Virus record (IMG/VR): IMGVR_UViG_3300025598_000231
Location: 1 to 20,289 of that record
Strand: one strand, 5' to 3'
DNA length: 20,289 nucleotides
DNA from: a virus
In this document: piece by piece, positions 2,459-19,397 of the stretch
Numbering within the stretch: the stretch's first letter is position 1
Layout: each line of letters begins with the position of its first letter
Translations under genes and position numbers: made by a program
The notes under the pieces: generated by a model
Database searches by the model: none
Told to the model about the DNA's origin: nothing
The model's input: only the letters and a program-made list of their open reading frames with translations

Positions 2459-2605
2459 ATGTATCAATTAATGGAAGAAAAAACAATTAAACGCTTATCT
2501 GATGGTGCTTTTATTCCCATGCTTGAAGACAACACAGACTATCAAGCCTACCTAAAATGGGTAGCTGAAGGCGGTCAAGTTTTACCTGCGGATGAAAATG
2601 CTTAA
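2459..2605 (+). CDS. Small conserved phage protein behind a fibre gene (48 aa)
   Basis: This short gene runs from ATG 2459 to TAA 2603-2605. It encodes a 48-residue acidic protein beginning MYQLMEEKTIKRLSDGAFIP and continuing with NTDYQAYLKWVAEGGQVLPA. The pattern I-x-R-L-x-D-x-A-F-I-P ... N-x-D-Y-x-x-Y-L-x-W-x-x-E-G is one I recognise from small phage proteins encoded after tail fibres; its biochemical role is unknown to me. By position it matches the XkdW-like gene at 664-834 and may help fibre folding or attachment (inference). It lies 1 nt behind the fibre gene and its last 14 nt overlap the following homing endonuclease. It shows no sequence likeness to the first module's small gene beyond size and charge. 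Confidence 0.65.
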   Translation: MYQLMEEKTIKRLSDGAFIPMLEDNTDYQAYLKWVAEGGQVLPADENA

Positions 2606-3224
2606 TCAAAATTTTCCACCTACCGCCTTGCTAGTTATGCAACATAACATAACTGGCTTAAAGTACTTTTGCAAGACATCTTTGCTATACAGGATTTATA
2701 GTTACAAAGGTAGCGGAACTCGTTGGAATAATCATTTAAAGGTTCATGGCAAGGATATTACAGTCGGCGTAATGGGTGTATATACCGATAAGCAAAGATG
2801 CCTAAAAGCGGCTAAAAAGTTCTCTGCTGACCACGATATTGTCAATAGCGATGAATGGGCTAATTTGGTCGAGGAAACAGGCATGATGGGTGCAAGCATG
2901 AAAGGTGAACGCAATCCTTTCTATGGCAAAAAGCATACTCCTGAAATGACAGAGTATCTTCGCCAGAAAAAAATTGGTAAATCAGTTAATAAAGGTGCTT
3001 ATCGTAGCCCTGAAAATCGTGCCAAAATATCAGCATCGTTAAAAGGTCGTAAAAACCCAGCAGTTTCTAAAGCATTAACTGGTCGCAAATTATCAGAAGA
3101 AACAAAACAAAAATTATCTGAATCTCGTAAAGGATATACACACAGTATGGAAACTAGAGAAAAATTACGCCAGAAGGCAATAGTCCAATGGGCTAAACAA
3201 CCAGCCGATGAGGTGAAAGCATAA
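2592..3224 (+). CDS. Homing endonuclease, GIY-YIG-like with NUMOD3 motifs
   Basis: The 210-residue basic protein has an N-terminal region like phage Seg-type nucleases: TGLKYFCKTS then YSYKGSGTRWNNHLKVHGKD (residues about 22-55). This replaces the textbook GIY/YIG tripeptides with a diverged version. It is followed by NUMOD3-type DNA-binding motifs: GERNPFYGKKHTPEM (about 99-115), SPENRAKISASLKGRKNP (about 139-156), and GRKLSEETKQKLSESRKG (about 164-181). Such proteins cut DNA to spread their own gene. Starts at 2592 or 2598 are both possible, as neither has a strong ribosome binding site; 2592 gives a 14-nt overlap with the previous gene. Its 3' end carries GAGGTGA (3210-3216), well placed for the next fibre start. 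The catalytic residues of the diverged core are not certain, so activity is inferred. Confidence 0.85.
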   Translation: MKMLNQNFPPTALLVMQHNITGLKYFCKTSLLYRIYSYKGSGTRWNNHLKVHGKDITVGVMGVYTDKQRCLKAAKKFSADHDIVNSDEWANLVEETGMMGASMKGERNPFYGKKHTPEMTEYLRQKKIGKSVNKGAYRSPENRAKISASLKGRKNPAVSKALTGRKLSEETKQKLSESRKGYTHSMETREKLRQKAIVQWAKQPADEVKA

Positions 3225-5582: not shown

Positions 5583-6581
5583 ATGGACGGCTTTAAGACA
5601 TTACCCAAGATGCAGTGCTTCAAAGAAGGCGGCTCTGTAGCAGTTAAAAACATTATGAAAAAAGGCGGCATCGCTAAAAAAGGCGTGCCTGCTGTTAAAG
5701 AAAAAGATGAAGGTCCTAAGCGCCAAATGGTTGCTGGCCTAAAAGGCACAACGCCTGATGTTGCTGATGAAACCACAACTACCATGAAAAAAGGCGGCCG
5801 TGCTAAGAAAGCCATGGGTACCGTTCGCAAATATAAAGACGGCGGAGCAGTAGGTGTATACGGCGCTAAGAAAAAATCTGGCGACTACGACAGCATCGAA
5901 AAAGCCAAAGATATCAAGCCAGCTAAAGCTGCAGCTCCATCTAAGGCAGCTGTTAAGCCAGCCATGAAGGGCAGCGACGTTGCTAAAGAAAAAAGCAAAC
6001 CCGCTGGCTCATCAAAAGCTAAGAAAGTAAGCGACAACGCTAAAATGGCTGATGCTAAGTCTGGCGCTAAAGGCGGCCCAAACAAGTACAAAAAAGGCGG
6101 TGAAGTAAAAAAGATGGCTGCCGGTAGCCAAACAGCTCCATTAGCTACCGGCCCAGATTCCATCGCACGCGCCCATCAATTAGCATTAATGCAAGAGATG
6201 CGTAGATTGCCTCCTGCAATGCAATTACAGTTGTTGCAACAACAGCAACGAATTGGCGGCACAGGTGATATGAACGCGTTGGCTAATCAAATGAATCCAC
6301 AACCACAACAGCAACCAATGCCTACTAACATGGGCACCATGGGTCAAAAGCGTGGTGGTAAAGTTAAAAAGCATGCAGCTGGTGGCAAAATTGGAAAAAT
6401 TGCAGCAGGTTTATTTCCGGGTGCATTGTTTGGGCTTCCAACAGCTGCCGCAATATACAGCAATGAAAAAGCTAAAGATGCAAAAGTAGAAGAAGAAACC
6501 GCTGCTAAAGATAAAGAAGCAGAAACTAAATCTGCTCCTGTTGCTAAAAAACGTGGCGGTAAAGCTACAAAGGTTTGCTAA
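5583..6581 (+). CDS. Lysine-rich repeat protein with eight K-x-G-G-type motifs, function unknown
   Basis: This 332-residue protein has about 58 lysines (17%, hand count) and no fold I can name. The double glycine recurs in a fixed setting: KEGGSV (G16-17), KKGGIA (28-29), KKGGRA (71-72), KDGGAV (87-88), KKGGEV (172-173), KRGGKV (258-259), AAGGKI (267-268) and KRGGKA (325-326), usually followed by K-K within four residues. Residues 90-170 are an Ala/Lys/Ser-rich linker, about 194-245 are Gln/Met/Pro-rich, and 273-292 are hydrophobic ([20 protein letters not shown]). It sits first in a block leading into neck and tail genes. A DNA- or capsid-binding virion protein is possible, but this is inference. 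GAGGA six bases upstream supports the start. Confidence 0.7.
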
Positions 6582-6582
6582 T

Positions 6583-6750
6583 ATGCCAATCGAATCTAAA
6601 CAACAGCAAAAAGCCATGTACGCTGCTGCCGCAGGCAAAAGCAACATTGGCATTCCTAAGAAGGTAGGCAAGGAGTTTATCAAAGCTGGTAAAGCTAAAG
6701 CCAACCTGCCACAGAAGGTAATGAAGAAAGCAGCTGGAAGAGGACGCTAA
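6583..6750 (+). CDS. Small DUF3008-like protein (55 aa)
   Basis: The likely start is ATG 6583, one base after the preceding stop; a longer reading from 6541 would run through the end of the upstream gene and loses the conserved opening. The product begins [20 protein letters not shown], then has [15 protein letters not shown] and a basic end ([11 protein letters not shown]). The order M-P-x-x-S-K-x-Q-Q-x-x-M ... I-P-x-x-V-G-K-E-F resembles small phage and bacterial proteins of the DUF3008 type, for which no role is known to me. It lies between two lysine-rich GG-motif proteins and its stop overlaps the next start (TAATG), so the three are probably made together. Confidence 0.65.
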
Positions 6751-7220
6751 TGAAAGATTTTAAACAAAACGTCAAAATGATGTGCGCTGGCGGTCACTAC
6801 AAAGAAGGTGGCGACGTTAAGCAAGACAAGCAAATGATCAAAAAAGCATTCAAGATGCACGATGATCAGCTGCATGAGAAAAAGCACACCGATTTGTCTA
6901 AGTTAAAAACTGGCGGCAAAGTTAAAAAAATGGCTGAAGGTAGATTGGTTGATGACATAGATTTTAAAAATGCCAAACCAGTTAAAATGCCATCAGGTGT
7001 TGGAAGAACACCTACGATGAATATTGACGGTAAAGACGTTGAAGTAAGACCGGTTCAGATGCCAACACCTAGACTTAGTGATTTACCAAAAACTGCAAAT
7101 CGTCCTGATGATTTAGTTTATAGATATGCTCCCGGTCAAGGACCAAGCCTATCTGATTGGAAGCGCGGCGCTGCAAGCGGCATGAAAAAGGGCGGTAAAA
7201 CTAAACGCGGGAAAAAATAA
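6750..7220 (+). CDS. Second lysine-rich GG-motif protein, function unknown
   Basis: This 156-residue basic protein shares its N-terminal layout with the product of 5583-6581. Here [20 protein letters not shown] leads into GDV; there [12 protein letters not shown] leads into FKEGGSV. Further GG motifs are KTGGKVKK (G55-56) and MKKGGKTKRGKK at the C-terminus (G148-149). Residues about 65-140 are less basic and contain several prolines, with no family I recognise. Its ribosome binding site (AGAGGA, about 6739-6744) is good. The stop TAA is followed by one codon and then the GTG start of the connector gene in the same frame. The GG-motif proteins may be paralogous at their N-termini; function is not known. 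Confidence 0.65.
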   Translation: MKDFKQNVKMMCAGGHYKEGGDVKQDKQMIKKAFKMHDDQLHEKKHTDLSKLKTGGKVKKMAEGRLVDDIDFKNAKPVKMPSGVGRTPTMNIDGKDVEVRPVQMPTPRLSDLPKTANRPDDLVYRYAPGQGPSLSDWKRGAASGMKKGGKTKRGKK

Positions 7221-7223
7221 GCC

Positions 7224-8297
7224 GTGGCCTATTCTAATACATACAACCAGACTACGGTCGACGTTGATCAGATGATTTCCTACGCCTTTCGTGGTGCAGG
7301 AAAGCAAGCTGAAGAAATCACACCTGAGTACGTACAAGCCGCTAAGCAGGCGCTGTTCTACATTTTGCAGAACTCGTCTAACCGCGGCGTTAACCTATGG
7401 TTGTTAGAGAATATCATCCTTGGTGCGCAAAGTAATCAGCAGATCCTTACTATGCCAATGGGCACGATTGACGTGCGCGAGGCAAATTGGATTTACATCC
7501 AGACACCACAAATTGAGACAGCACTGCCTGTTGACAATTCAACTTCACCAAACGTGTTTGATCAAAACTTAAATGGTTTTGGTACAACTACGGTTAGTGA
7601 AAACTGGTTTGGTGCTCAATATCAAAATCAAACTAGCGTGTATTACGTTGGTATCAATGCCTATGCACCAAACTACGGTAGCGTAACATACACTGGTTTG
7701 GTATATGAAACAAGTAACGATGGTATTACATGGGAACAGCAAGCTGCGTTTGATACGCCACTAACCTTGCAAGACCGTACATGGTCTTACATTCCAATTA
7801 ATCTGACCATTCCGTATTACTTCCATCGTATTCGTTCTACCACATCGACGCCATTTTCATGCCGTCAAATTGTTTTTGCACAATCACAACAAGTTATTCC
7901 ATTAGCACGCTTAAACCGTGATGACTACTGGAACTTACCAAACAAACAGTTTCCATCTGTACGTTCTTTGCAATACTGGTTTAACCGTCAGATTGATCCA
8001 GAGATGTATATCTGGCCTGTACCATCCAACGACTTCCAAGTATTCCAGCTCATTATTGAAAAGCAGATGATGGACGTTGGCTCGTTGACTAATCAGTTAT
8101 ACCTGCCCAACCGTTGGATCCCCTACATTCAAGCTGCGCTCACCCATGAGTTGGCGATGCAGTTGCCCGGTGTTGATATGGGGCGCGTTGCTTACTTGGA
8201 AAAATTAGCACTTAATCTACGTACGCAAGCCGAAGAAGAAGATCGTGATAAGTCACCAATCTACTTCCAACCTAACTACAGCTACTATACACGATGA
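7224..8297 (+). CDS. P22 gp4-like head-to-tail connector protein with inserted beta domain
   Basis: The 357-residue product opens with an all-helical pattern typical of gp4-like tail accessory factors: DVDQMISYAFRGAGKQAEEI, then a helix with AAKQALFYILQNSSNRGVNL and W59. These proteins form a ring beneath the portal and hold packaged DNA in the head. P22 gp4 is about 166 residues; the extra length here lies mostly at about 105-222, a beta-rich insert with TGLVYETSNDGITWEQQAAF and WSYIPINLTIPYYFHRIRS, resembling a discoidin-like sandwich. The helical part resumes with IPYIQAALTHELAMQLPGVD and YLEKLALNLRTQAEEEDRDK. The start is GTG at 7224; no ATG occurs in frame until 7272. The ribosome binding site is poor. 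The stop overlaps the next start by 4 nt. Confidence 0.8.
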   Translation: MAYSNTYNQTTVDVDQMISYAFRGAGKQAEEITPEYVQAAKQALFYILQNSSNRGVNLWLLENIILGAQSNQQILTMPMGTIDVREANWIYIQTPQIETALPVDNSTSPNVFDQNLNGFGTTTVSENWFGAQYQNQTSVYYVGINAYAPNYGSVTYTGLVYETSNDGITWEQQAAFDTPLTLQDRTWSYIPINLTIPYYFHRIRSTTSTPFSCRQIVFAQSQQVIPLARLNRDDYWNLPNKQFPSVRSLQYWFNRQIDPEMYIWPVPSNDFQVFQLIIEKQMMDVGSLTNQLYLPNRWIPYIQAALTHELAMQLPGVDMGRVAYLEKLALNLRTQAEEEDRDKSPIYFQPNYSYYTR

Positions 8298-8914
8298 CCA
8301 GCGCATATCAAATGACCTACGATAATCTCGTAGCTGACATTATTAACTATATGGAGCGTAATGACGCCCAGTTTGTAGCTCAAATTCCAAACTTAATTGG
8401 TTTGGCTGAGTCTGCTATTGCAGCGCAGTTAAAAACGTATTTGCAGTTAACCGTAGTTGAAACAACACTGGCCACTAATCAAGTGGTACTAAACAAACCA
8501 GCACGCTGGCGTAAAACAGTTTCAATGAAGTATAATGGCCAACCTATTTTACTGCGCAGCCAAGATTATGTAGCGCAATATCAAGCTGAATCATCCTCTG
8601 GCACACCGCTTTACTATGCTGATTACGACTATAACAACTGGGCGTTCGCACCAAAACCTGATGCCACATACCCTATTGAAATTTTGTATTACAGCGAAAT
8701 TCAGCCATTAGATTCACAAAATCAACAAAATCTGTTCACGCGCGAATGCCCACAGGCGATGTTGTTTGGCTCTTTATTGCAAGCTCAAGGCTACTTAAAG
8801 GCTTTGGACAAGCTACCAATTTGGAAACAATATTACGACGATTCGTTGGCAGCACTCAAGCAAGAAGACAACCAACGCCGCATCGACAGAAACGTAACGG
8901 TTCAGGAACCCTAA
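8294..8914 (+). CDS. Tail adaptor-like protein (SU10-type adaptor family)
   Basis: The 206-residue product begins with helices (YDNLVADIINYMERNDAQFV, LIGLAESAIAAQLKTYL). A central beta section follows with LNKPARWRKTVSMKYNGQPI and TPLYYADYDYNNWAFAPKPD, then YPIEILYYSEIQPLDSQNQQ. It ends in helices (LFGSLLQAQGYLKALDKLPI). The P-x-x-W-R-K ... Y-Y-A-D-Y-D-Y-x-x-W-x-x-x-P-x-P-D-A-x-Y-P-x-E-I-L-Y-Y pattern is one I associate with the adaptor family of short-tailed phages, placed between connector and nozzle. The ATG lies in a 4-nt overlap with the gp4-like gene, so their amounts are probably coupled. Assignment rests on motif memory and neighbours. Confidence 0.7.
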   Translation: MTSAYQMTYDNLVADIINYMERNDAQFVAQIPNLIGLAESAIAAQLKTYLQLTVVETTLATNQVVLNKPARWRKTVSMKYNGQPILLRSQDYVAQYQAESSSGTPLYYADYDYNNWAFAPKPDATYPIEILYYSEIQPLDSQNQQNLFTRECPQAMLFGSLLQAQGYLKALDKLPIWKQYYDDSLAALKQEDNQRRIDRNVTVQEP

Positions 8915-8917
8915 TAT

Positions 8918-10222
8918 ATGTCACAATCATTTGTATCCCCGTTTACTGGTACCGTTATTGAACCAACGGATGTATCCTATTACGCCTTAGCGTTTAGTTC
9001 TAACACCCAACTTTACTGGCCTCAAGTAGTCAGCGGCACGCAGGTCCCTGCATCACGCATTATGGATTGCACGCCGTCTACTAGCAGTTTGTCAATTGCC
9101 CTACCAGACGCAACTCAAGGATCACTTGGCAGTGATATATTTTTCCGCAATAAAGGCTCTTCAGCATTTACCGTTACAGATATTAATGGTTTAAATGGTG
9201 TTACGGTTAATTCTGGCGTAACAGTTTATTTTTACCTAACCAATAATACCGCTAACGTTAATGGTAGCTGGGGCGTTATTACCTTAGGTACTGGCACTTC
9301 ATCTGCTGATGCGTCTTCGTTGGCTGGCGCAGGATTGACTACAGTATTGGGTCAGTTAGCTGTTACTAGTAACGTTGTTGAAACATCAGTATCACCTTCA
9401 ATTACAAATAGTAGCCGAGCTAATACATACGTATGGGTTGGCGGCGTTGGCACATTCACACTGCCAAGCCTTACCACTTTGTCCCCCGGTTGGTGGATTG
9501 GTTTTAGAAATGGTGGAACTGGCACGTTAACAATTGCAACGCAGACTCCATCAAAAATTAATGGTCTGTCTAGCATTACTGCTAACCCCGGCGATTCTGG
9601 ATTTATTTACTACGAATCAAGCACAGGTAACTTTTTTACTGTTGGTTTAACAAATCAAAACAACGTTACTTTTACCTCTGGAACGTATGACGTTGATAGT
9701 ATCACTGGCAGCACGTTTAATTTAACAACGTACGCACCAACCATTCAAACCTATGTTGCTCTATCTGGCACACGTACAACAGGTTTAAGTATTACGCTTC
9801 CAGCAATCACTCAGTTGTATGTGCTAGTTAATAATACAACATCAGGTTCTTACAACCTTTCATTTAATACAACTGGTAGCAGTTCTGCTCCAGTGGTTTT
9901 ATCTGCTGGTCAAGTTGCGTTAGTGCTTAGCGAAGCGTCTGGTCTATTTACGCTTTCAACAACTAACGCTGGAGTATTTTTTGCTCAAAATGGATCCGCT
10001 ACAGCGCCATCATTTTCGTTTATAAGCGACAACGCAACAGGTATGTATTTACGTGGAACCAGTATTTTAGGTTTAACTGCAAACGGTACTGAAATATTAG
10101 ATTTAAACGGTACAAACGCATTAGCTCCAGTAATTAGCACCCCAGCATCGCTTTTAGTTGGTGGGTCGGAAACAGTTACTGGCACGCTTACAGCGGGACT
10201 TATTAGTGGTGGGACGTTCTAA
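8918..10222 (+). CDS. Beta-repeat virion structural protein (tail fibre or spike type)
   Basis: This 434-residue protein has almost no charged residues and is rich in Thr, Ser, Asn and Gly. Residues 1-50 (SPFTGTVIEPTDVSYYALAF and a QLYWPQ motif) look like a virion-attachment lead. Three similar beta units follow at about 57-123, 168-244 and 277-350. Each has a L-P-x-x-T strand, a glycine-rich turn with F-x-N or V-N-N, and a late aromatic strand. The end contains GSATAPSFSFISDNATGMYL (residues 359-378), a motif common near C-termini of phage fibres. Its place between adaptor and nozzle genes suggests it is attached to the short tail, perhaps as a fibre or decorating protein (inference). Confidence 0.65.
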   Translation: MSQSFVSPFTGTVIEPTDVSYYALAFSSNTQLYWPQVVSGTQVPASRIMDCTPSTSSLSIALPDATQGSLGSDIFFRNKGSSAFTVTDINGLNGVTVNSGVTVYFYLTNNTANVNGSWGVITLGTGTSSADASSLAGAGLTTVLGQLAVTSNVVETSVSPSITNSSRANTYVWVGGVGTFTLPSLTTLSPGWWIGFRNGGTGTLTIATQTPSKINGLSSITANPGDSGFIYYESSTGNFFTVGLTNQNNVTFTSGTYDVDSITGSTFNLTTYAPTIQTYVALSGTRTTGLSITLPAITQLYVLVNNTTSGSYNLSFNTTGSSSAPVVLSAGQVALVLSEASGLFTLSTTNAGVFFAQNGSATAPSFSFISDNATGMYLRGTSILGLTANGTEILDLNGTNALAPVISTPASLLVGGSETVTGTLTAGLISGGTF

Positions 10223-12393
10223 TGGCTGTCGCGCCAGCACAACCAGCGCAACAGCAACAAATTCAGCCCCAGTATAGTCAAGTTTACAAAATGGCTTTAC
10301 CGGGCGGGATAAAACGCGACGGTACTATATTCGAAACACCAGAATACACTGATGGTGTATGGTGTCGTTTTCAGCGTCAAGTGCCTAAGAAAATGGGTGG
10401 CTATCAGGAGATATTTTCTACGTTTGATGGAATTATGCGTGGCATGACCATGAATGGCTACAACGGCGTAAATTATGTGTTTGCTGGAACTCGAGTTGGT
10501 TTAGATGTATTTGCAACTGGACAATCGTTAGGAATTGGTAGCGGCCCATACCGCGCTATATTTATTTCTGGCTATTCTCAGTTTCCAGTTGCTAACACAA
10601 CCATTAGTGCTAGCAATACAACGTCGTTTACAATTAATAGTTCTAATGCAACTCCAGTTAGTTATACACAGCCGTTTTCAAATGGTACGCAAATCATTTT
10701 TTCACAAAGCGGCACTGTAACACCTTACACAGTAACAAATTCTACATTCACATCACCCAACACAGTAGTCACTTTTACACCAGCACATTCTGGTTCTATT
10801 AGTAATGTGTGGTTGTATAACTATAACTTTTCAGCAAATAGCAATTTACTTTGGCAGTTTGATTATCAATATAACCCACAGGGTGGCGCGCTTAATTTGC
10901 TTGCACACCCCGGTTTAAATTTAAACAATATTGATAATGCAATTAAGTCTCAAGTATACATTGGTTCGGTATTACCTAATGCGTCTGAACAATGGACGTT
11001 TTATGGATTAGCTGATACCACTGGGGTTGCTCCAACTTACCAAGCTATTGCAGTGGATGGTGGTGTATGTTCGTTGCACCCATTTATTTTTGTGTATGGT
11101 TCTAACGGATTTATTGCTAATAACAACGTAAGTTCAATATATGCCAACCAATCTTTGACAGATTGGAATGGACCATTAGCAAACCAAGTTAACGTTGCTA
11201 CTGGTAAAGTAGTTTTTGGTATGCCAATCCGCGGTGGTGCTTATTCACCAGCAGGACTATTTTGGGCAACCGATAGTTTGATCCGTGTGCTATTTACTGG
11301 CAGCGCGCCAAACTATTGGACATACGATATTGTTTCTAGCCAGATCTCTATTATGTCATCTCAATCTGTTGTTGAGATGGATGGATTGTATTATTGGATG
11401 GGTGTTGACCGTTTCTATTTATACGACGGTCGTGTTACGGTTGTGCCAAATGATAAAAACGTAAACTGGCTATTTAACAACCTTAATTATCAACAGCGCC
11501 AAAAAGTATGGGCGACCAAAGTTCCACGTTACAATGAGATTTGGTTCTTTTATCCCCGTGGCACAGCGACAGAATGTACTGATGCTATTATTTATAATGT
11601 CAAAGATAAACTTTGGTATGACGCTGGCCAAGCTGTTGGTGCACAACGTTCTTGCGGATACACCACAGAAGTATTCCCAACACCATTATGGGCTGATTGG
11701 AATTATAACGTAACGTTTAGTCAAGACTACGTTACTATTAATCATCCAGCTTCATTACCTGCAGCAAATTCTAGTCAGTTATATTTTGCTGGCGATTTAA
11801 CGCCAACATTTTATCCCGGATCTTATCTAACATTTAGTCAAGCGCCGGGAAATGCAGTATTTCAAATTGCTAATGCTAAATTTTATTCTAATGCAGCAAT
11901 TGGCGCTAATGGTGTAACGTTAGTAACCAGCGCTACATCGTTTGGCGTGGCCCCGTTGGCAAACACTTTGGCGTATCAAATTCAAGGTGGCTACCCAATC
12001 TGGCAACATGAGACTGGGTTAGATCAAGTATCGTTTAAAGAACAAACGGCTATCTATTCAAGCTATACTACTGGCGATATTAGCTGGGTTGGCGGTACAA
12101 CGACACCAGCCAACACACAAGCTATTGGTAATAATCGCCGTATGCACATTCGACGCATTGAGCCTGATTTTGTGCAAGCTGGCAATTTAAGTTTAACCAT
12201 TATTGGTCGTAAATTTGCTGCATCACAAGTAGAAGATTCAGGACCATACGTATTTAGCCCATCTACTGAAAAAATTGATTTGCGCGTTGAGCATCGTGAA
12301 GTTCAATTTCAGGTAGTATCTAACGAGATTGGCGGTAACTATGAACAAGGTCGTTTATTAATTACCCAAGAGTTAGGCGATGAACGTCCTTAA
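10222..12393 (+). CDS. Tail nozzle-like protein (P22 gp10 / T7 gp12 type)
   Basis: The 723-residue product starts with a Gln/Pro-rich lead and then MALPGGIKRDGTIFETPEYT, WCRFQRQVPKKMGGYQEI (residues about 24-64). This opening is one I recognise from packaged-DNA stabilisation or tail-nozzle proteins of short-tailed phages. The rest is beta-rich with propeller-like repeats, including GLYYWMGVDRFYLYDGRV, YNEIWFFYPRG and IIYNVKDKLWYDAG, consistent with the hexameric nozzle that extends the tail tube. Residues about 115-190 are a Ser/Thr/Asn-rich insertion. It follows the beta-repeat gene with a 1-nt overlap and overlaps the next small gene by 14 nt. Family assignment is by pattern and gene order. 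Confidence 0.75.
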   Translation: MAVAPAQPAQQQQIQPQYSQVYKMALPGGIKRDGTIFETPEYTDGVWCRFQRQVPKKMGGYQEIFSTFDGIMRGMTMNGYNGVNYVFAGTRVGLDVFATGQSLGIGSGPYRAIFISGYSQFPVANTTISASNTTSFTINSSNATPVSYTQPFSNGTQIIFSQSGTVTPYTVTNSTFTSPNTVVTFTPAHSGSISNVWLYNYNFSANSNLLWQFDYQYNPQGGALNLLAHPGLNLNNIDNAIKSQVYIGSVLPNASEQWTFYGLADTTGVAPTYQAIAVDGGVCSLHPFIFVYGSNGFIANNNVSSIYANQSLTDWNGPLANQVNVATGKVVFGMPIRGGAYSPAGLFWATDSLIRVLFTGSAPNYWTYDIVSSQISIMSSQSVVEMDGLYYWMGVDRFYLYDGRVTVVPNDKNVNWLFNNLNYQQRQKVWATKVPRYNEIWFFYPRGTATECTDAIIYNVKDKLWYDAGQAVGAQRSCGYTTEVFPTPLWADWNYNVTFSQDYVTINHPASLPAANSSQLYFAGDLTPTFYPGSYLTFSQAPGNAVFQIANAKFYSNAAIGANGVTLVTSATSFGVAPLANTLAYQIQGGYPIWQHETGLDQVSFKEQTAIYSSYTTGDISWVGGTTTPANTQAIGNNRRMHIRRIEPDFVQAGNLSLTIIGRKFAASQVEDSGPYVFSPSTEKIDLRVEHREVQFQVVSNEIGGNYEQGRLLITQELGDERP

Positions 12394-13150: not shown

Positions 13151-14329
13151 ATGGGTGGAACAGCAGAAATAATTGCAGCACCAGTTGCAGATTTTTTGGG
13201 TAGTAGTTTTGCTGGGGACGCGGCATTTACGTTAGCCTCATCAGACGTTGCTGCACAAGCTGCTGCAGGCGCTATTTCTGTTTCTGACGCGTTAGCGGCT
13301 GGAGCTTCTGTTTCCGATTTAGCCTCAGCTGGGGCCCTTACTGATCTTGGCGGCGGAACATTTTTAAATACCGCTACAAATGCTTTGGTAGACTCCACTG
13401 GAGCAGCACTGACAGATTTAGGTGGTGGTTCTTTCCTAAATCCCGTAACTGGTGCATTAGTAGATTCAACAGGTCAAGCATTACCACAAGTTAGCTCTGG
13501 TATTTTTCAAGGAGCAGACGGTTCATTCCTAAGCGCTACCGGAGACCCATTAACCCAATCTGCTGTTGATGGTTCTTTTCTTAATACCAACACTGGCGAA
13601 ATTATTGACGCTACTGGCGGCGCTGCTGCTCAAGATGCTGGTGGTTTATTAGGTACCGGAGTAACAGCAGAAGATGTTGCTAAATACGGTCAAAAAGCAT
13701 ATAGCGTATTAAATAAATTATTAGACCCAGCAACCAAAGCACTTCAAACAGGTCAACATTTAACTGGCCCAGCCGCTGGAGCAGCATTGGGGGCCATTTC
13801 TACTTTACCCACAAATTCACAAAATCAAACACAAGACCCAACCCAAACAGGTGGTGGATTTTTAACACCGACATTTGCTGGCGGAAATACAAATTATACT
13901 TTAAGTGATAATGATGTTGGTAGTCCAACAACACAACCATACACAGCGCCAGTCAATATCCCTTTAATGGCGCCACAAGCCGCACCTCAATTAGCAACCG
14001 GTGGTCAAGTTGATGTTGATGGAGAAACACAAGAACATGTTCCTGAATTTTATAGCGAAGGTGGCTTAAAACATCGTTATGTAAAAGGTGACGGTGATGG
14101 TACTTCAGATGATGTACCAGCAATGTTGGCTAATGGTGAGTTTGTAATACCGGCTGACGTAGTATCTTCATTAGGTAATGGTAGCAATGATAGTGGTTCT
14201 AAAGTGTTAGATAATTTTTTAGAAACTATTAGAGAACATAAACAAAAACATAGTGCAAAGCATTTACCGCCGGACAGCAAAGGTCCGTTAGCATATTTGC
14301 TAGAAGCTCACAAAAAGGTTAAATCATAA
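13151..14329 (+). CDS. Low-complexity internal virion-type protein with four 24-residue repeats
   Basis: The 392-residue product is Ala/Gly/Ser/Thr-rich. Residues 62-158 are four tandem units of about 24 residues. The first two (62-85, 86-109) share ALTDLGGG-x-FLN ... ALVDSTG; the next two (110-132, 133-158) are more diverged but keep G-S-F-L and D-A-T-G or S-A-T-G. A helical part follows (about 172-200). Near the C-terminus lie two GG motifs (LATGGQVD, YSEGGLKH) and GDGDGTSDDVPAMLANGEFV, continuing IPADVVSSLGNGS (about 313-345). That block is familiar from phage virion proteins ejected with DNA or located in the tail. It ends in a Lys/His-rich helix. Function is inferred only from position and composition. 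Confidence 0.65.
   Translation: MGGTAEIIAAPVADFLGSSFAGDAAFTLASSDVAAQAAAGAISVSDALAAGASVSDLASAGALTDLGGGTFLNTATNALVDSTGAALTDLGGGSFLNPVTGALVDSTGQALPQVSSGIFQGADGSFLSATGDPLTQSAVDGSFLNTNTGEIIDATGGAAAQDAGGLLGTGVTAEDVAKYGQKAYSVLNKLLDPATKALQTGQHLTGPAAGAALGAISTLPTNSQNQTQDPTQTGGGFLTPTFAGGNTNYTLSDNDVGSPTTQPYTAPVNIPLMAPQAAPQLATGGQVDVDGETQEHVPEFYSEGGLKHRYVKGDGDGTSDDVPAMLANGEFVIPADVVSSLGNGSNDSGSKVLDNFLETIREHKQKHSAKHLPPDSKGPLAYLLEAHKKVKS
13334..13621 (+). repeat. Four tandem ~72-bp coding repeats (24-residue protein repeat)
   Basis: In-frame units begin at about 13334, 13406, 13478 and 13547. The first two are alike at protein level over nearly all 24 residues, while the last two have diverged. The conserved core is F-L-N-x-x-T-G-x-L-V-D-S-T-G. 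A beta-solenoid-like stack is a reasonable guess for such short glycine-rich units. Confidence 0.6.
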
Positions 14330-15333
14330 TGGCCGGTCTAAGTAATTTAATTGCCAATTCAACTCAACAAGCCACGACGTTACCGTCATGGATGACTACA
14401 GCACAACAAAACGTTGTTAATAGTGCTCAAAATGCAGCTGGTAATGTTCCTACACTACAAAATACTGTAGCACAAGGAGCAATTAACCAATTAAACAGTC
14501 CAGCAAATCCTTTTGCTACTTCACAAGGAACATTAGGATCAATTGCTTCTGGTGCTGCGAATCCATGGATTGTTAACCAACAAACTGGTCAAGTAACTCC
14601 TAACGTTAATACTGCGTTGGGTGGTTTATTTCAAGCCCAAAACCAACAATTAAATACTTTAATTCCACAGATTACTGCCCCAGCTGATGCTGCAGCAATT
14701 GCATCCGGACAATTTGGTAGCTTGCGCGGCAATACTGCTGCTGACACAGCACTGACAGGCGCTAATGCAAATCTAGCTGCAGCTCAAATGCAAGCTGCAT
14801 TATCTAACCAGCAAACTGGTGTCCAAGCTGGCGCAGCACAAGGCGCTGTTGGTCAAGAGTATGGCACAACAGCAAATACATTGGCTGGTTTGCAACAAAC
14901 GGCTCCGTTGTCTACTGCAGCTAACGTCGGTAAAATTATTGGAAACCTTGGAAATGTTGGAACAACTGTTAGCAGTTCTACCAATGTTTCACCACTTAAT
15001 CAAATTGGGGCATTGGCTAGCAGTTTGGGTGGTGGTACAAATGCTGTTAATGCTTTACTTAATACATTAAGCCCAGGTTCCACAATTGGAAGTTTAGTTA
15101 AAAGCATATTTGGAACTACTAGACCCGGCGGTGTTCCTTCTGATGCGAACCCAGATCCAAGCGGCAGTGGTAATTGGATTGGGACAAATGGCCAGGTGTA
15201 CAGCCAAGATGGTACACCAATTGATACAAGCGGTTCTGTTTCAAGTGCAGGAGATCAGGCTGTAAACGCCACAATAGACCAATATGGTAATGTTACAAGT
15301 CAATTTGATCCTAACGCATACGGCGCAGGTTAA
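14329..15333 (+). CDS. Internal virion / DNA ejection-type protein, Ala-Gln-Asn rich
   Basis: This 334-residue protein is low in charge and rich in Ala, Gln, Asn, Thr and Gly. A long helical section at about 95-195 contains GLFQAQNQQLNTLIPQITA, AIASGQFGSLRGNTAADTAL and ANLAAAQMQAALSNQQTGVQ. The ASGQFGS-R-G-N and alanine-glutamine-rich helix pattern is common in short-tailed phage proteins ejected into the host (P22 gp7/gp16/gp20-like role). The C-terminal third is Gly/Ser-rich with NWIGTNGQVYSQDGTPIDTS. No enzyme motif is visible. It starts in a TAATG overlap with the preceding gene and is followed by two more candidate ejection proteins, so the three probably act together. Confidence 0.55.
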   Translation: MAGLSNLIANSTQQATTLPSWMTTAQQNVVNSAQNAAGNVPTLQNTVAQGAINQLNSPANPFATSQGTLGSIASGAANPWIVNQQTGQVTPNVNTALGGLFQAQNQQLNTLIPQITAPADAAAIASGQFGSLRGNTAADTALTGANANLAAAQMQAALSNQQTGVQAGAAQGAVGQEYGTTANTLAGLQQTAPLSTAANVGKIIGNLGNVGTTVSSSTNVSPLNQIGALASSLGGGTNAVNALLNTLSPGSTIGSLVKSIFGTTRPGGVPSDANPDPSGSGNWIGTNGQVYSQDGTPIDTSGSVSSAGDQAVNATIDQYGNVTSQFDPNAYGAG

Positions 15334-15344
15334 AAAGGTAAATT

Positions 15345-17108
15345 ATGGCAGCTAGTACATCCAGCGGATTAAGTTTAGGTTTTAACGCAAAAGGCGAGGC
15401 TGAGCCAAAAGGCGCTCTTCCTTTAGATGCAACAGAAACTAAAAAGCTCTTAACAAACTTGCAACAAATGGTTGACGAGCGTCAAAGCCCATTAAATCAA
15501 TTAATAAGCGGGCTTAAAGACGCTAGTGCTTGGGGTTCTGGCGGACTTGAAGGTCCAACAGCTGCTTTGGCTATTCGTGGCAAACAAAAAGACGAAGAAG
15601 AGCAACAAGATTATAATAGACGCCAAACATTGGCGGCTATGAAAGCTCAGTTAGCTAATCAGCAACAAGTTATGAATTACAATTTAGGTATTTCTGGAGC
15701 AACAACTGCTGCCGGACAAACACCAACTATTAGCGGAGGTACAACACAAACTTCCGCTGGTAAAGCTTCTCCTGTTCAACAAAAAATTTCTAGTTTACCC
15801 CCAGCGTTACAAGCTGTTGCATACGGTTATCTTAATAAACCTGTGCCAGATTTTGACGCTATTGATAGAATGGTTGAAGAATACGAAACTAAAGGTAAGC
15901 CAGAGCTTGCTAAAAATGTTGCCTTTATTAATAGTTTACCGGAAGGCCCAGAAAAAGAAATTCTTAAACGTCAAGCGTTTGAAAAAGGCTACGGTGTATT
16001 TGAAACAGTTGATTCACAAGGATTTAAAAAACCGTATTCAATTCTTGGAGGAGGAGCACCTTCAAGTCAAGCTGCCCCGTCCACAACCGGCACACAAGGA
16101 ACAGCGGCTCAAGTTGCTTCTTCGTTGGGTGTTCCGATTATTAGCGGTGACCGCGATTGGGATAAACAGTATAACTTATATTTAAATAGCAAAAAACCTG
16201 GTTACAGCGGACCTCCCGTAGCTTTCCCTGGTTACAGCCAACACGAAACTGGCAACGCAATTGACGTGGGTCCAATAACTGCAGATCAGCGTCAAAAATT
16301 AATTGATGCTGGATTTACACAACCAGTTCCAAATGATAAAAATCATTGGGAGTTAACCAAACCAGGTGCTAAAACAACAGAACCATCGTACACTGGCGGA
16401 TTGCCAACAGGTAGTACTGCAGCTGCTGAAACATTTACTAAAAACGTTCAAGCCAACAATGAAGATTTTAATAAAAACACAGGTGGTAAGCTTGGCGAAC
16501 AGATTTTAAATGATAAAGATAGAATGCGTTATTTAGATGACGCACTTAAAATTGTAAATGATCCTAAATCAGATATTGGTCCGGGTTCTTCTTTACGTCA
16601 AGCTATTACACAAGCAAAAGGCTACATAGGTGATTTAGATCCTAAAGAATTGGATGACCTTACACAAAAAGGAATTGTAGACCAAGCGCTTAAAAAGCAA
16701 GTAGTTGGCAATGTTAGGGCTGCTTTAGGTGGACAATTGTCTGACCGTGACGTTGCAATTTTTGAAAAAACAATTGGTAACATTAATGATCCAAAAGAGT
16801 TCTTAAAAAGAACATTGCAGTTTGAAAAAGCATCTATTGTTGCAAGAAACAACTTAAATACATTTATTAACCAAGCTAATGTTTTAGATAAAAAATCTGC
16901 ATTTGCTGATTATATGAAACCTGGTGGTCAGTATGAACAAGACCTTACCAAAAATTTAGGTGTAAGCGGTTCTCCAGCAACAGCAGCGCCCTCAGGCAAA
17001 CCATTGCCAAAAGGTGCTCCTGAAGGCGCACGTTGGGGCGTAGGCCAACACGCCAATAAAGTATATGTAATACAAGACGGTAAAACTTATGAATGGACTC
17101 CGGACTAA
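15345..17108 (+). CDS. Internal virion protein with M15 peptidoglycan peptidase domain (VanY/Ply500-type)
   Basis: The 587-residue protein has a flexible, Gln-rich N-terminal region (1-145), a helical part (about 145-225), then a peptidase domain at about 253-340. The zinc and catalytic set of M15 peptidases is complete: SQHETGNAIDVG carries H300 and D307 (S-x-H-x-x-G-x-A-x-D), and DKNHWEL carries D331 and H334. The spacings (7 and 3 residues) equal those of Ply500 (H80, D87, D130, H133). Such enzymes cut peptidoglycan peptide stems. A helical C-terminal half follows (about 360-560) and a short end WGVGQHANKVYVIQDGKTYE. Within the virion operon, a role in local wall digestion during DNA entry is inferred, distinct from the lysozyme at 4993. 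AAAGGT precedes the start. Confidence 0.8.
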   Translation: MAASTSSGLSLGFNAKGEAEPKGALPLDATETKKLLTNLQQMVDERQSPLNQLISGLKDASAWGSGGLEGPTAALAIRGKQKDEEEQQDYNRRQTLAAMKAQLANQQQVMNYNLGISGATTAAGQTPTISGGTTQTSAGKASPVQQKISSLPPALQAVAYGYLNKPVPDFDAIDRMVEEYETKGKPELAKNVAFINSLPEGPEKEILKRQAFEKGYGVFETVDSQGFKKPYSILGGGAPSSQAAPSTTGTQGTAAQVASSLGVPIISGDRDWDKQYNLYLNSKKPGYSGPPVAFPGYSQHETGNAIDVGPITADQRQKLIDAGFTQPVPNDKNHWELTKPGAKTTEPSYTGGLPTGSTAAAETFTKNVQANNEDFNKNTGGKLGEQILNDKDRMRYLDDALKIVNDPKSDIGPGSSLRQAITQAKGYIGDLDPKELDDLTQKGIVDQALKKQVVGNVRAALGGQLSDRDVAIFEKTIGNINDPKEFLKRTLQFEKASIVARNNLNTFINQANVLDKKSAFADYMKPGGQYEQDLTKNLGVSGSPATAAPSGKPLPKGAPEGARWGVGQHANKVYVIQDGKTYEWTPD

Positions 17109-17111
17109 AAC

Positions 17112-19397
17112 ATGGCCCTAAAAGAAGTCGATTACGATCCCTTTAAAGGTAAATTAAAAGAAGTCGATTACGACCCTTTTAAAGAAGATAAATCTTTAGC
17201 AAAAACATTTGAGCCAGCTACTGCTACAGTAATGCGAGCTCTTATTGGTTTAGCTAAACCTCCTGCAGCTATGGCTGAAATGGTTGGTTGGGATAAGCCG
17301 GCCAAAGATTTGTTAAAAATGGACGAAGAGTATAAGAAAAAGGCTGGTATAGCTGGCACAATTTCTAGTACGCTAGGCGATGTTGCTGGTTTTATGTTAC
17401 CAGCTAAAGAGTTTGAAATTGGCTATCAAGGTTTAAAAACAGTTCCTAAGTTTGCTAAATTAGCCAAAGCCATGGAAGGTAATTTTGCTAATTTGCCAAG
17501 TTGGGCTAAAGCATCCGCTACAGGTGCCGGAGCTTCACTATTTACCCCTACAGGTAAATCAATTGCAGAGCCAGGTTATTTTAAAGAAAAAGCAGAACAA
17601 GCTGGTACGGGCGCCATTTTAGGCCCTGCTGCTGAAAAAATAGTTGGTGGTGCGTCACGTGTTCTTTCACCACAATTACAACGTTTAAAAGACCTTGCAG
17701 CACAAGGTATTGATGTAAAACGTTTTCTTAGCGGTTCAAAAGGCGTCCCTGGATTTGAAGATACGTCTGGTGCCACTTTGGGTCAAACTTTAGGCGGTTC
17801 GGCGCAGGCCCTTGAAAGAATTTTGCGGGTATTGCCTGGCGCTGGAATTAAAGGTCAAGCTGAAAGTTCTAATAGAAACTTATTAGAAATGCTTCGTTTA
17901 AGAAAACAAGCATTAAGCAATCAAAGAGACAGAGATAATGCTGCGTTAAAAGCCGTGTACGATAGTCGCCAGCACCCATTGCAGCAATTAACTGATCAGT
18001 TAAAAGCTGATAGTGCAAATAGACATCATAAAAGTGTTTCTAAATTGCACGAAAATTTAAACAATGAACAAGATCAATATCATTTAGATGTTTTAAATAA
18101 AGTATTATCGCATTTAAAAGATGAAAAAGGTCAGCCTTTAAAATTGCCAAAAGATGTTGTTGGTAGCAATGCTATTAAGCACATTCAAGAAAGACTGAGC
18201 GAAACTTATGGTAAAGCAACTGGTTTATTAGGTGACCCAGAGCTTGGTGGTTCTATTAAAATTACACCAGAGTTGGAAACTAAGTTAAAACAGGTTGTTG
18301 CTGATAATCCAGACGTACCAGGTTTAGATGCTGAAGTTAATAAACTCATTAATTTAGGCGGTGACACCAAGTTAATTTCTCCAGTTCAATGGCAAGCCCA
18401 ATTTCAAAAACTTGGTGATCGAGCCTACAATTTGCTTACCAAGGGTAACGCAGATGATGTAGAGTTAGCTGGCGCCCTAAAAGACATTAAAGGCCATTGG
18501 TTAGACCACGTTGGTGATACTGAAGGTGGTCAGTTAATGAAAGACGCTAACAGAGCTTATAGCCAGCTGCAAGGTCCCCAACGCGCTGTAGGATTGAAAT
18601 CATCAATGTTGGATGAAGGCAGATTTACGCCTGAACAATTAGTTTCTGGTTTAAAGCCAGAAATGTCTATTAAACGTTACACTGCAGCAAATGACGAACA
18701 GTTACAAGATGCTTTAGCAGCTGCTAAACTTTTAGACGCAAAAAGACAAAAAGTAGAAGAACAAGCAAACAAATGGAAAACTCAGTTAGAAGAGCACCAT
18801 GGTAAATTGGATGCTAAAGAAAAAGAAGCGCTTGACAAAATAAAACTAAATCAAAAAGAAGAACTTGACAACGCCTACGAAAATCAAAATTCTAATGTTG
18901 AAACACTTGTAAACAAAATTCAATCTGAAAGCGTTCCAAGTAGTTTATTAAATAAAGCCGGATACGAATTAGCGCTTGGACCAACGCTTAGCGCTGGCTT
19001 GGGTGGATTAAGTTTTCTTGGCGCTCACCAAATGGGTTTACCTTTAAACTACCAAATAGCTGCTCCAATAGCTGCGGTAGCGGCCCCAGCTTTGGCTACT
19101 CGTTTTGGTTATACTGGTGCAACAGATCTATTAAAAGATTTGGCAACAGAACGACCAGAGTTTGTTAAACAAGCTGGTAAAATGTTACAAGAAAACTTGC
19201 CAACTGCAACTGGTGCGCTTGTTAATGCTATGGAGCCAACCGCGTACCGTCAAATTGGCGGAGGTAAAAACGTTCAAGTTTATGCGCCACAAGGAATGGA
19301 AAACGCACAGCCAATTCCATTTCCAACTGTTCCGCAAGATGATCAAAGCACTCCTATTGTTCCAAAACGCGCGGGTGGTCTAGTTCACTTGCGGTAA
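17112..19397 (+). CDS. Large internal virion / DNA ejection-type protein
   Basis: The 761-residue product starts with a doubled peptide, LKEVDYDPFK at residues 3-12 and 15-24. Residues 30-180 are Ala/Gly/Lys-rich with amphipathic stretches. About 185-345 are helical with SNRNLLEMLRLRKQALSNQR, and about 535-605 form a strong Lys/Glu/Gln coiled coil. Two hydrophobic segments follow (618-639 and 647-667). It ends PKRAGGLVHLR, another GG motif. Helical bulk, late membrane-like segments and its place at the end of the virion operon fit proteins ejected to form a channel across the envelope, as in P22 and T7; no lytic motif was found. The stop overlaps the convergent polymerase gene by 13 nt. Confidence 0.65.
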   Translation: MALKEVDYDPFKGKLKEVDYDPFKEDKSLAKTFEPATATVMRALIGLAKPPAAMAEMVGWDKPAKDLLKMDEEYKKKAGIAGTISSTLGDVAGFMLPAKEFEIGYQGLKTVPKFAKLAKAMEGNFANLPSWAKASATGAGASLFTPTGKSIAEPGYFKEKAEQAGTGAILGPAAEKIVGGASRVLSPQLQRLKDLAAQGIDVKRFLSGSKGVPGFEDTSGATLGQTLGGSAQALERILRVLPGAGIKGQAESSNRNLLEMLRLRKQALSNQRDRDNAALKAVYDSRQHPLQQLTDQLKADSANRHHKSVSKLHENLNNEQDQYHLDVLNKVLSHLKDEKGQPLKLPKDVVGSNAIKHIQERLSETYGKATGLLGDPELGGSIKITPELETKLKQVVADNPDVPGLDAEVNKLINLGGDTKLISPVQWQAQFQKLGDRAYNLLTKGNADDVELAGALKDIKGHWLDHVGDTEGGQLMKDANRAYSQLQGPQRAVGLKSSMLDEGRFTPEQLVSGLKPEMSIKRYTAANDEQLQDALAAAKLLDAKRQKVEEQANKWKTQLEEHHGKLDAKEKEALDKIKLNQKEELDNAYENQNSNVETLVNKIQSESVPSSLLNKAGYELALGPTLSAGLGGLSFLGAHQMGLPLNYQIAAPIAAVAAPALATRFGYTGATDLLKDLATERPEFVKQAGKMLQENLPTATGALVNAMEPTAYRQIGGGKNVQVYAPQGMENAQPIPFPTVPQDDQSTPIVPKRAGGLVHLR
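17118..17183 (+). repeat. Direct repeat coding for a doubled EVDYDPF peptide
   Basis: Copies at 17118-17147 and 17154-17183 (period 36) encode LKEVDYDPFK twice. The DNA copies differ at three positions, all silent, while the six-base spacer codes Gly-Lys. It lies at the very N-terminus of the large internal virion-type protein. Confidence 0.85.

Follow-up and report, generated by a model that had tools for sequence, protein, structure and literature searches.

A doubled N-terminal peptide and the gene upstream of it

The stretch of DNA analyzed here (the window) is the entire virus record IMGVR_UViG_3300025598_000231 of IMG/VR, 20,289 bases in length, and the element under study is a short peptide, LKEVDYDPFK, that is encoded twice at the start of an open reading frame (ORF) for a protein of 761 amino acids (aa). 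This ORF lies in the position of the third ejection protein (gp16) of phage P22 and directly follows an ORF in the position of gp20; throughout, the gp14, gp7, gp20 and gp16 slots are set by gene order and not by homology to P22. The features on which the argument turns are the following.

15345-17108, + strand: upstream protein of 587 aa that contains a VanY-type stretch, in the P22 gp20 slot by gene order
17016-17105, + strand: C-terminal tail of this upstream protein, APEGARWGVGQHANKVYVIQDGKTYEWTPD, probably a divergent example of the tail type found with DPF tags (see below)
17112-19397, + strand: 761-aa tagged protein, in the P22 gp16 slot by gene order
17118-17147, + strand: first copy of the tag, LKEVDYDPFK, a repeat in the translated ORF
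17154-17183, + strand: second copy of the tag, LKEVDYDPFK, with three silent differences from the first

The stop codon of the upstream gene stands 3 nucleotides (nt) ahead of the ATG of the tagged gene, the product of which begins with MALKEVDYDPFKGKLKEVDYDPFKEDKS and carries a VD[YFH]DPF-like tag within its first residues. The sequence-only reading of this stretch had placed the two copies in a row; the peptide is indeed present twice, but GGTAAA (Gly-Lys) stands between the copies. The 30-base copies differ, as had been noted, at three sites (copy positions 1, 21 and 24), each change being silent. The repeat is not a chance one, because 10 aa, the length of the longest exact repeat within the protein, was never reached in 2000 shuffles of its sequence, the maximum being 7 aa, in three cases.

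Since the window copies are unlike at just 3 of 30 bases, they might be taken for a neutral, recent tandem duplication. Four IMG/VR relatives (best-segment identity 84%, mutually identical in the region), however, read MGLKKVDYDPFKGKLKEVEYDPFKEE and keep the doubled tag with diverged copies, and doubled or tripled tags are found in many unrelated proteins, which leaves a neutral duplication with practically no probability. The motif is thus retained in orthologues, and its doubling is not private to the window. No match was found among named phages for the whole 761-aa protein, nor for the 26-aa tag peptide at E 10. The 761-aa protein matches no Pfam and no PHROG family at E 1e-3, any gp16 or ejection profile included, and is therefore gp16-type by position only. 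Its predicted fold is mostly helical at a mean predicted local distance difference test (pLDDT) score of 41, a very low confidence, and this whole-protein model is usable only for the statement that the N-terminus (residues 1-33) is without predicted structure.

Distribution and conservation of the DPF tag

IMG/VR was scanned for DPF followed, 12-42 bases on, by [DE][YF]DPF, with one scan per Asp codon. The two scans returned 67 and 52 stretches, with 111 of the 120 pattern places in frame, while a control with D-P-F reordered to F-P-D returned 14 stretches against the 67 of the matched DPF pattern; nine of the 14 were in frame, and a lenient rule placed three of these close to an ORF start, in ORFs of 75 aa or more. 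At 73 of 105 ORF places, the ORF is 75 aa or longer and has the tag in its first 80 aa; 57 of these are left after removal of near-duplicates, and six of the 57 rows were dropped by eye as spurious or unrelated ORFs (L090, L097, L111, L114, L154 and L176; such numbers are our handles for loci). Among the resulting 53 proteins (51 rows, the window protein and gp13 of Pseudanabaena phage Pam5, which has two DPF tags), 41 carry two copies, 11 three and one four, counts that are bounded by the requirement of the search for two copies. A scan of genome contigs gave three stretches, none of which is an in-frame doubled tag.

The tags follow the consensus P-V-[DE]-[YFH]-D-P-F-A, and residues left free by the search pattern are kept in the first units: P(-4) in 36, V(-3) in 39, D(-2) in 41 and A(+3) in 34 of 49. 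Codons for the same residue differ silently in 164 of 381 pairs (43%; 66 adjacent copy pairs in the 53 proteins). Conservation of the pattern-free residues and silent divergence together support selection on the peptide itself, which had been proposed from the window copies. Single-linkage clustering of the bodies behind the tag sorted 53 proteins, a set that still included some of the dropped rows, into 24 families at E 1e-5, of which four are singletons from such rows; in many proteins with a doubled tag, no similarity beyond the tag is detectable. The search for EVDYDPF-like peptides and their copy number that the sequence-only reading had called for thus finds the doubled tag both in relatives and in many otherwise unrelated phage proteins.

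Family scans covered 38 tagged proteins, namely that of the window and 37 of the 57. LPD38 was identified in five, ddrB-ParB in two and ART-PolyVal in one, and the PHROG matches were to virion RNA polymerase (6), DarB-like (5), virion structural (4) and endolysin (1-2 each) families. Because the carriers include polyvalent, virion RNA polymerase-like and DarB-like proteins, we infer that the large proteins bearing the DPF tag belong to a class believed to be injected; passages of PMC5512222 describe polyvalent phage proteins as likely packaged. One DPF-tagged body (L147) has homologues in named phages that bear other N-terminal peptides: a repeated peptide of the AYRRGL type in Caulobacter phage GB2A, a repeated NPFAQFA in phage DSL-LC05, where the protein is annotated as 'putative DNA transfer protein', and a peptide of the FPDDTSPDVI type in a weak homologue (E 6e-3) from Sinorhizobium phage phiM5, a 'putative internal virion protein' whose record notes its detection in the particle proteome.

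Association of the tag with an upstream C-terminal tail

The ORF directly upstream of tagged genes mostly ends in a tail of ~30 aa, …GARxAPDGxWYVPDPxRPGKYLxV. In a forward test, a profile built from only 34 tails of other loci, found through the tail, was scored on the C-termini of 51 ORFs that precede a tag, that of the window included, and on 511 control C-termini from 56 loci of the phage group of the window, which contain near-duplicates and from which four rows had been removed as relatives of the upstream gene of the window. At 5 bits, 40 of the 51 C-termini preceding a tag and none of the 511 controls scored as tails; at lower cut-offs the figures were 40 and 7 (3 bits) and 44 and 72 (0 bits). 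Below 5 bits lie 11 C-termini, those of the window, L021, L078, L080, L081, L095, L096, L129, L130, L139 and L144, and in L096, L130 and L139 the hairpins appear by eye to be shortened. A scan for a single EVDYDPF came out near chance, with 12 stretches of which just three are N-terminal (L008, L010 and L015), and all three have a hairpin-like tail upstream.

A reverse test used a DNA pattern for PDPxRPGKYL that is blind to tags; it returned 106 stretches, of which 104 loci were read. The motif lies at most 14 residues from a C-terminus at 103 of the 104 places. The sole internal match (L233) falls within a long ORF that continues for another 842 residues. With this match and two loci with less than 150 nt downstream left out, 101 tail loci remain, and in 89 of them (75 of 86 distinct contexts) the next gene begins with [DE]xDP[FWY], as compared with 12 of the 838 remaining gene ends of these loci. 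The 12 misses include loci with a variant peptide (L213 and L275, with PVDHDPDF or PVDYDPDF; L214 and L229, with TPVGYNPF; L253, with VPTDEMPA twice), two in which the tag lies further downstream (L221 and L248) and five whose next gene does not clearly open with a tag (L252, L255, L261, L265 and L290). Tail and tag occupy facing ends of consecutive proteins. A single copy of the tag is present in 30, two copies in 53 and three in 2 of 85 tags found through the tail, so that the doubled copy is common and not required.

These 85 tail-tag pairs involve 19 families of upstream and 22 families of downstream bodies, and the 77 pairs in which both bodies reach at least 100 aa make up 26 family combinations. 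Tail and tag genes are usually no more than ~40 nt apart and often overlap, which would suit a recombination cassette in which upstream tail, stop and downstream tag travel together on a single piece of DNA, with a pairing devoid of function. Both peptides are kept, nevertheless, across all these body families in spite of much silent divergence between copies, tags begin 214-647 nt past the tail in L227, L221 and L248 (by first fitting ATG), and the P22/Sf6 incompatibility described below (PMC10883804) also speaks against a functionless junction, making this explanation an improbable one.

Gene order around the tagged gene

The remaining features of the window that bear on the comparison with P22 are listed below.

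8294-8914, + strand: virion structural protein (phrog_2941)
10222-12393, + strand: virion structural protein (phrog_3287), in the P22 gp10 slot
14329-15333, + strand: 334-aa protein, in the P22 gp7 slot as judged from gene order

The gene order of the right half of the window resembles that of the P22 late operon, with phrog_2941 and phrog_3287 followed by the gp14, gp7, gp20 and gp16 slots, and relatives of the protein at 10222-12393 are annotated as 'phage stabilization protein' in two of seven named records. By order, a gp10-like gene, the gp7 slot and the gp20 slot precede the tagged gene, as they would a gene for a P22 gp16-type ejection protein.

Several other observations were made in the window. 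The protein encoded at 13151-14329 contains GDGTSDDVPAMLANGEFVIPADVV and weakly matches a tape-measure PHROG (phrog_6090, E 5.7e-5), and those at 5583-6581 and 6750-7220 contain many KKGG-type stretches. The ORFs at 821-1312 and 2592-3224, amid tail-fibre-like genes, have by eye the look of homing endonucleases, presumably of the HNH and GIY-YIG types. The tagged protein itself closes with KRAGGLVHLR (19365-19394), and like ends close other proteins of the same region (KSGGLAHLR in L039, ATGGLVYLR in L052 and KRDGGLIHLYGE in L037); such an end is possibly another terminal signal.

Other tail and tag types and the P22/Sf6 hybrids

The DPF tag and its tail are not the only such combination. A scan for DYSKLSDEEL gave 38 stretches with 10 doubled N-terminal tags, and a TP[AQ][QE]xAxxELx[RK]R tail lies upstream in all eight with visible upstream sequence (five distinct); L043, L058 and L203 (single tag) have an upstream end E[LI]ERRK. 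In P22, gp20 ends in …YTSKSGIKFTVE and gp16 starts with MKVTANGKTFNFPDGTS, a type (TSKSGIKFTVE with MKVTANGKTFNFPDGTS) that is unlike the DPF type. Two kin of the window, L039 and L044, have tails …TKSGIKYRIVPK and …TPGGIQFKVITP and tags MI[VI]E[IV]NGQQVE[LV]DDSF.

P22 and 16 other phages with a P22-like gp20, taken from the 60 matches listed of 151 records, were compared by eye, and the gp20 tail type matches the gp16 tag type in 16 of the 17. Agreement was found in 3/3 for type A (P22, MG40 and APSE-1), 8/8 for type B, with a …FSSLWGD tail and a MAKAWKDV[IV]AS… tag (SI5, ST104, JEP4, HF4s, ST64T, Louie, HK620 and Sf6), 2/2 for type C (Emek and phiSG1) and 3/4 for type D, with an FDQFD tag and a …KYG[YF]LP tail (Proteus V3, Aeromonas 4_4512 and sortregn). 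The first 12 phages were chosen before any of their tags had been seen, and the last four (phiSG1, phiKp_30, Aeromonas 4_4512 and sortregn) later, before their own tags had been seen; the agreement of phiSG1 is less independent, because the record of Emek had pointed to its similarity beforehand. Tag and tail, accordingly, not only co-occur but also covary. As judged from its sequence, SI5 is the best single case for a paired exchange of tail and tag: its gp20 is 96% identical to that of P22 over residues 1-400 and its gp16 72% identical from P22 residue 49 on, and gp20 tail and gp16 tag are both of another type than those of P22. MG40, conversely, retains the P22 tail and tag, at 94% and 83% identity, with a segment of its gp16 body only 29% alike.

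Further doubled N-terminal peptides were noticed in the ejection-gene region of L336 (NFFDQFDEQ / NYFDQFSKQ), L337 (ITADDIFG / ITSEDIFG) and L335 (GPWEQYA / GPWQNYA), each behind a different C-terminal tail. In L253 a DPF-type tail is followed by a gene that opens with MANLVPTDEMPAGVPTDEMPA, a doubled tag of other sequence (VPTDEMPA twice). We do not claim SKFGGV / LPSGSYY as a further pair, L206 having a similar tail without that tag.

Published hybrids of P22 and Sf6 bear on the function of these ends. According to passages of PMC10883804, P22 with either Sf6 gene 16 or Sf6 gene 20 alone yields less than 10^4 plaque-forming units (PFU) per ml and P22 with both yields 5x10^10 PFU/ml; the dead virions contain Sf6 gp16, and gp20 lacking its last 33 residues leads to non-functional virions. 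A gp16-gp20 interaction is inferred there, in passages that name neither the gp20 tail nor the gp16 N-terminus as its site. Since P22 is of type A and Sf6 of type B, the tail and tag are a candidate site for this interaction.

The same data weigh on two other explanations. Tail and tag could be separate sorting signals, of the T4 kind, for one third virion part such as the portal barrel or scaffold, and would then covary because that part changes. The location of the tag at the extreme N-terminus and the diversity of the tagged, cargo-like proteins (LPD38, ddrB-ParB, ART-PolyVal, virion RNA polymerase-like and DarB-like) would fit such a role. The presence of Sf6 gp16 in dead P22 virions means, on the other hand, that the mismatch acts after packaging, the protein entering the particle and yet failing to function (PMC10883804), and SI5 closely resembles P22 in gp20 and over the stretch of gp16 available, with both ends different (their portals were not compared), so that we consider sorting signals unlikely. 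The tag might also be a propeptide or protease site removed in maturation, like the first 20 residues of P22 gp7, the N-terminus of which is cleaved by host OpdA according to the P22 record; a propeptide, however, predicts neither a matching tail on the neighboring protein nor multiple copies, and this reading is very improbable.

A predicted mode of docking

For structure prediction with AlphaFold, one in-frame tail-tag junction (L288) was read through its stop and submitted as a fused chain. The model has strands at residues 19-20, 26-29 and 37-41 in the tail and at 74-78 (ALVPV), before the DHDPF of the second tag copy, with a mean pLDDT of 76 over residues 71-80. Outside the tail the model offers no partner with which such a strand could pair, which makes strand addition of the tag to the tail likely. 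A search of 46 tails against Pfam gave no meaningful match, the tail profile found nothing convincing in the PDB (the best hit, E 0.024, being unrelated) and Foldseek found no relative in the PDB. A likeness of the tail to WW domains, suggested by eye, was unsupported in the Pfam, PDB profile and fold searches.

The best explanation of these results, to which we would assign a probability of about 0.6, is cognate docking between consecutive ejection proteins. The doubled VDYDPF peptide would be an N-terminal docking tag on the ejection protein in the gp16 slot, and its cognate would be the C-terminal tail of the preceding protein in the gp20 slot; tail and tag would form matched types that are swapped between phages as a pair, the flanking bodies varying separately. 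Direct binding seems the most likely mode, in which the tail would fold as a small beta-hairpin, the residues before DPF (LVPVD) would add to it as an extra strand and Asp-Pro-Phe would provide a specificity tip. Additional copies of the tag may confer avidity or spare sites, and the pair would couple gp16-type cargo to a gp20-type conduit during DNA delivery. The tail-tag association thus lends indirect support to the docking tag proposed in the sequence-only reading, which had named the portal, the connector or another ejection protein as possible partners; the last of these, as the product of the directly upstream gene, fits best and is most likely the partner, and nothing found points to portal or connector.

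Several results weigh against this explanation. Five DPF tags that lack PVD (L078, L080, L095, L129 and L144) have no such tail upstream, the hairpin-like tail of L055 precedes a protein without a DPF tag, and phiKp_30 has a type D tail without the tag, the types other than DPF having been assigned by eye. Tail and tag adjoin on the DNA, so that co-inheritance by linkage confounds their association, and related phages and sequences are not independent, so that the Fisher value of the reverse test cannot be taken as a calibrated probability. The fused-chain model of L288 has a mean pLDDT of 66.7 and a predicted template modeling score of 0.45 and was read without coordinates or predicted aligned error; the alignment reaches over the tag in just five rows, and no pairing is predicted for the first of the two copies. 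The tail of the window scores 1.6 bits in the held-out profile, under the 5-bit threshold, and its 5.8 bits in a wider profile built without the window and L021 (best control, 3.5 bits) come from an alignment over the Pro/Ala-rich linker and GARW and not over the hairpin. In pairwise comparison its best score is 48, with L120, the top of the 511 controls being 35, and five of 78 tails exceed that control. The link between tail and tag in the window itself is weak, relying on where the genes lie and on pairwise resemblance to a few tails, and its divergent tail would presumably work in the same manner.

A more general proposal is a modular docking code for short-tailed phages and their relatives, in which ejection protein n would bear a C-terminal tail and protein n+1 a short, often doubled, N-terminal tag, and any cargo gaining the right tag, be it an RNA polymerase, an antirestriction or a polyvalent protein, would be coupled to the conduit and delivered. 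There would be at least four types (tag/tail: DPF/hairpin; DYSKL/ELxRR; FPDGT or VDDSF/SGIKF; FDQFDE/QFxAKYG), and the P22/Sf6 incompatibility would be a mismatch of code. We put this forward tentatively, at somewhat less than even odds.

Comparison with known systems

The tail-tag pair bears on how ejection proteins recognize each other and how proteins so variable remain compatible, and it may show how phages link the proteins that are pushed into the cell with their DNA. If it holds, a cognate code would explain why gp16 and gp20 of P22 are not singly exchangeable with those of Sf6 and would predict which ejection proteins work together; it would also flag injected cargo in unannotated phages by the short motif and give in vitro studies of the conduit an easy entry point. 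The tail partner of the DPF tag is a new result of this analysis, and no paper on the motif or on tail-tag pairing turned up in the literature searched, subscription papers being beyond reach.

The capsid-targeting sequence of phage T4 is a short N-terminal peptide on injected internal proteins; it serves in packaging, and the prohead protease cleaves it off. The DPF tag, in contrast, has a matching tail on the neighboring protein, and the P22/Sf6 mismatch acts after packaging, so that the published hybrids argue against a packaging role of this kind in the P22/Sf6 group. With P22 gp20 and gp16 the window shares the gene order, and in P22, as described in passages of PMC10883804, gp20 and gp16 have to be a matched pair; the tail/tag type of P22, however, is not DPF/hairpin.

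Repeated DPF motifs are also known from Eps15, in which two consecutive ones form the minimal unit for binding the mu homology domain of SGIP1, as described in passages of PMC4731787. Eps15, however, acts in eukaryotic endocytosis and its motifs are bound by another domain, so that this likeness is likely to be convergence.

A close parallel is offered by docking in nonribosomal peptide synthetases (NRPS) and their hybrids with polyketide synthases (PKS), where, according to passages of PMC9113145, a short linear motif (SLiM) at a disordered end docks to a beta-hairpin module at the end of the neighboring protein by adding a beta-strand, and the pairs set which subunits join. Here too, tail and tag lie at facing ends of consecutive proteins. 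The polarity is reversed in the phages, with the motif N-terminal and the hairpin-like module C-terminal, and the phage module is ~30 aa long, its motif is often doubled and it belongs to the ejection machine of a virus. No homologue of the alpha-beta-beta-alpha-alpha docking domain of NRPS/PKS was found among the tails in the Pfam, PDB profile and fold searches. The tail/tag pair is hence not a member of that family, but by analogy it would work in the same way as peptide-synthetase SLiM docking.

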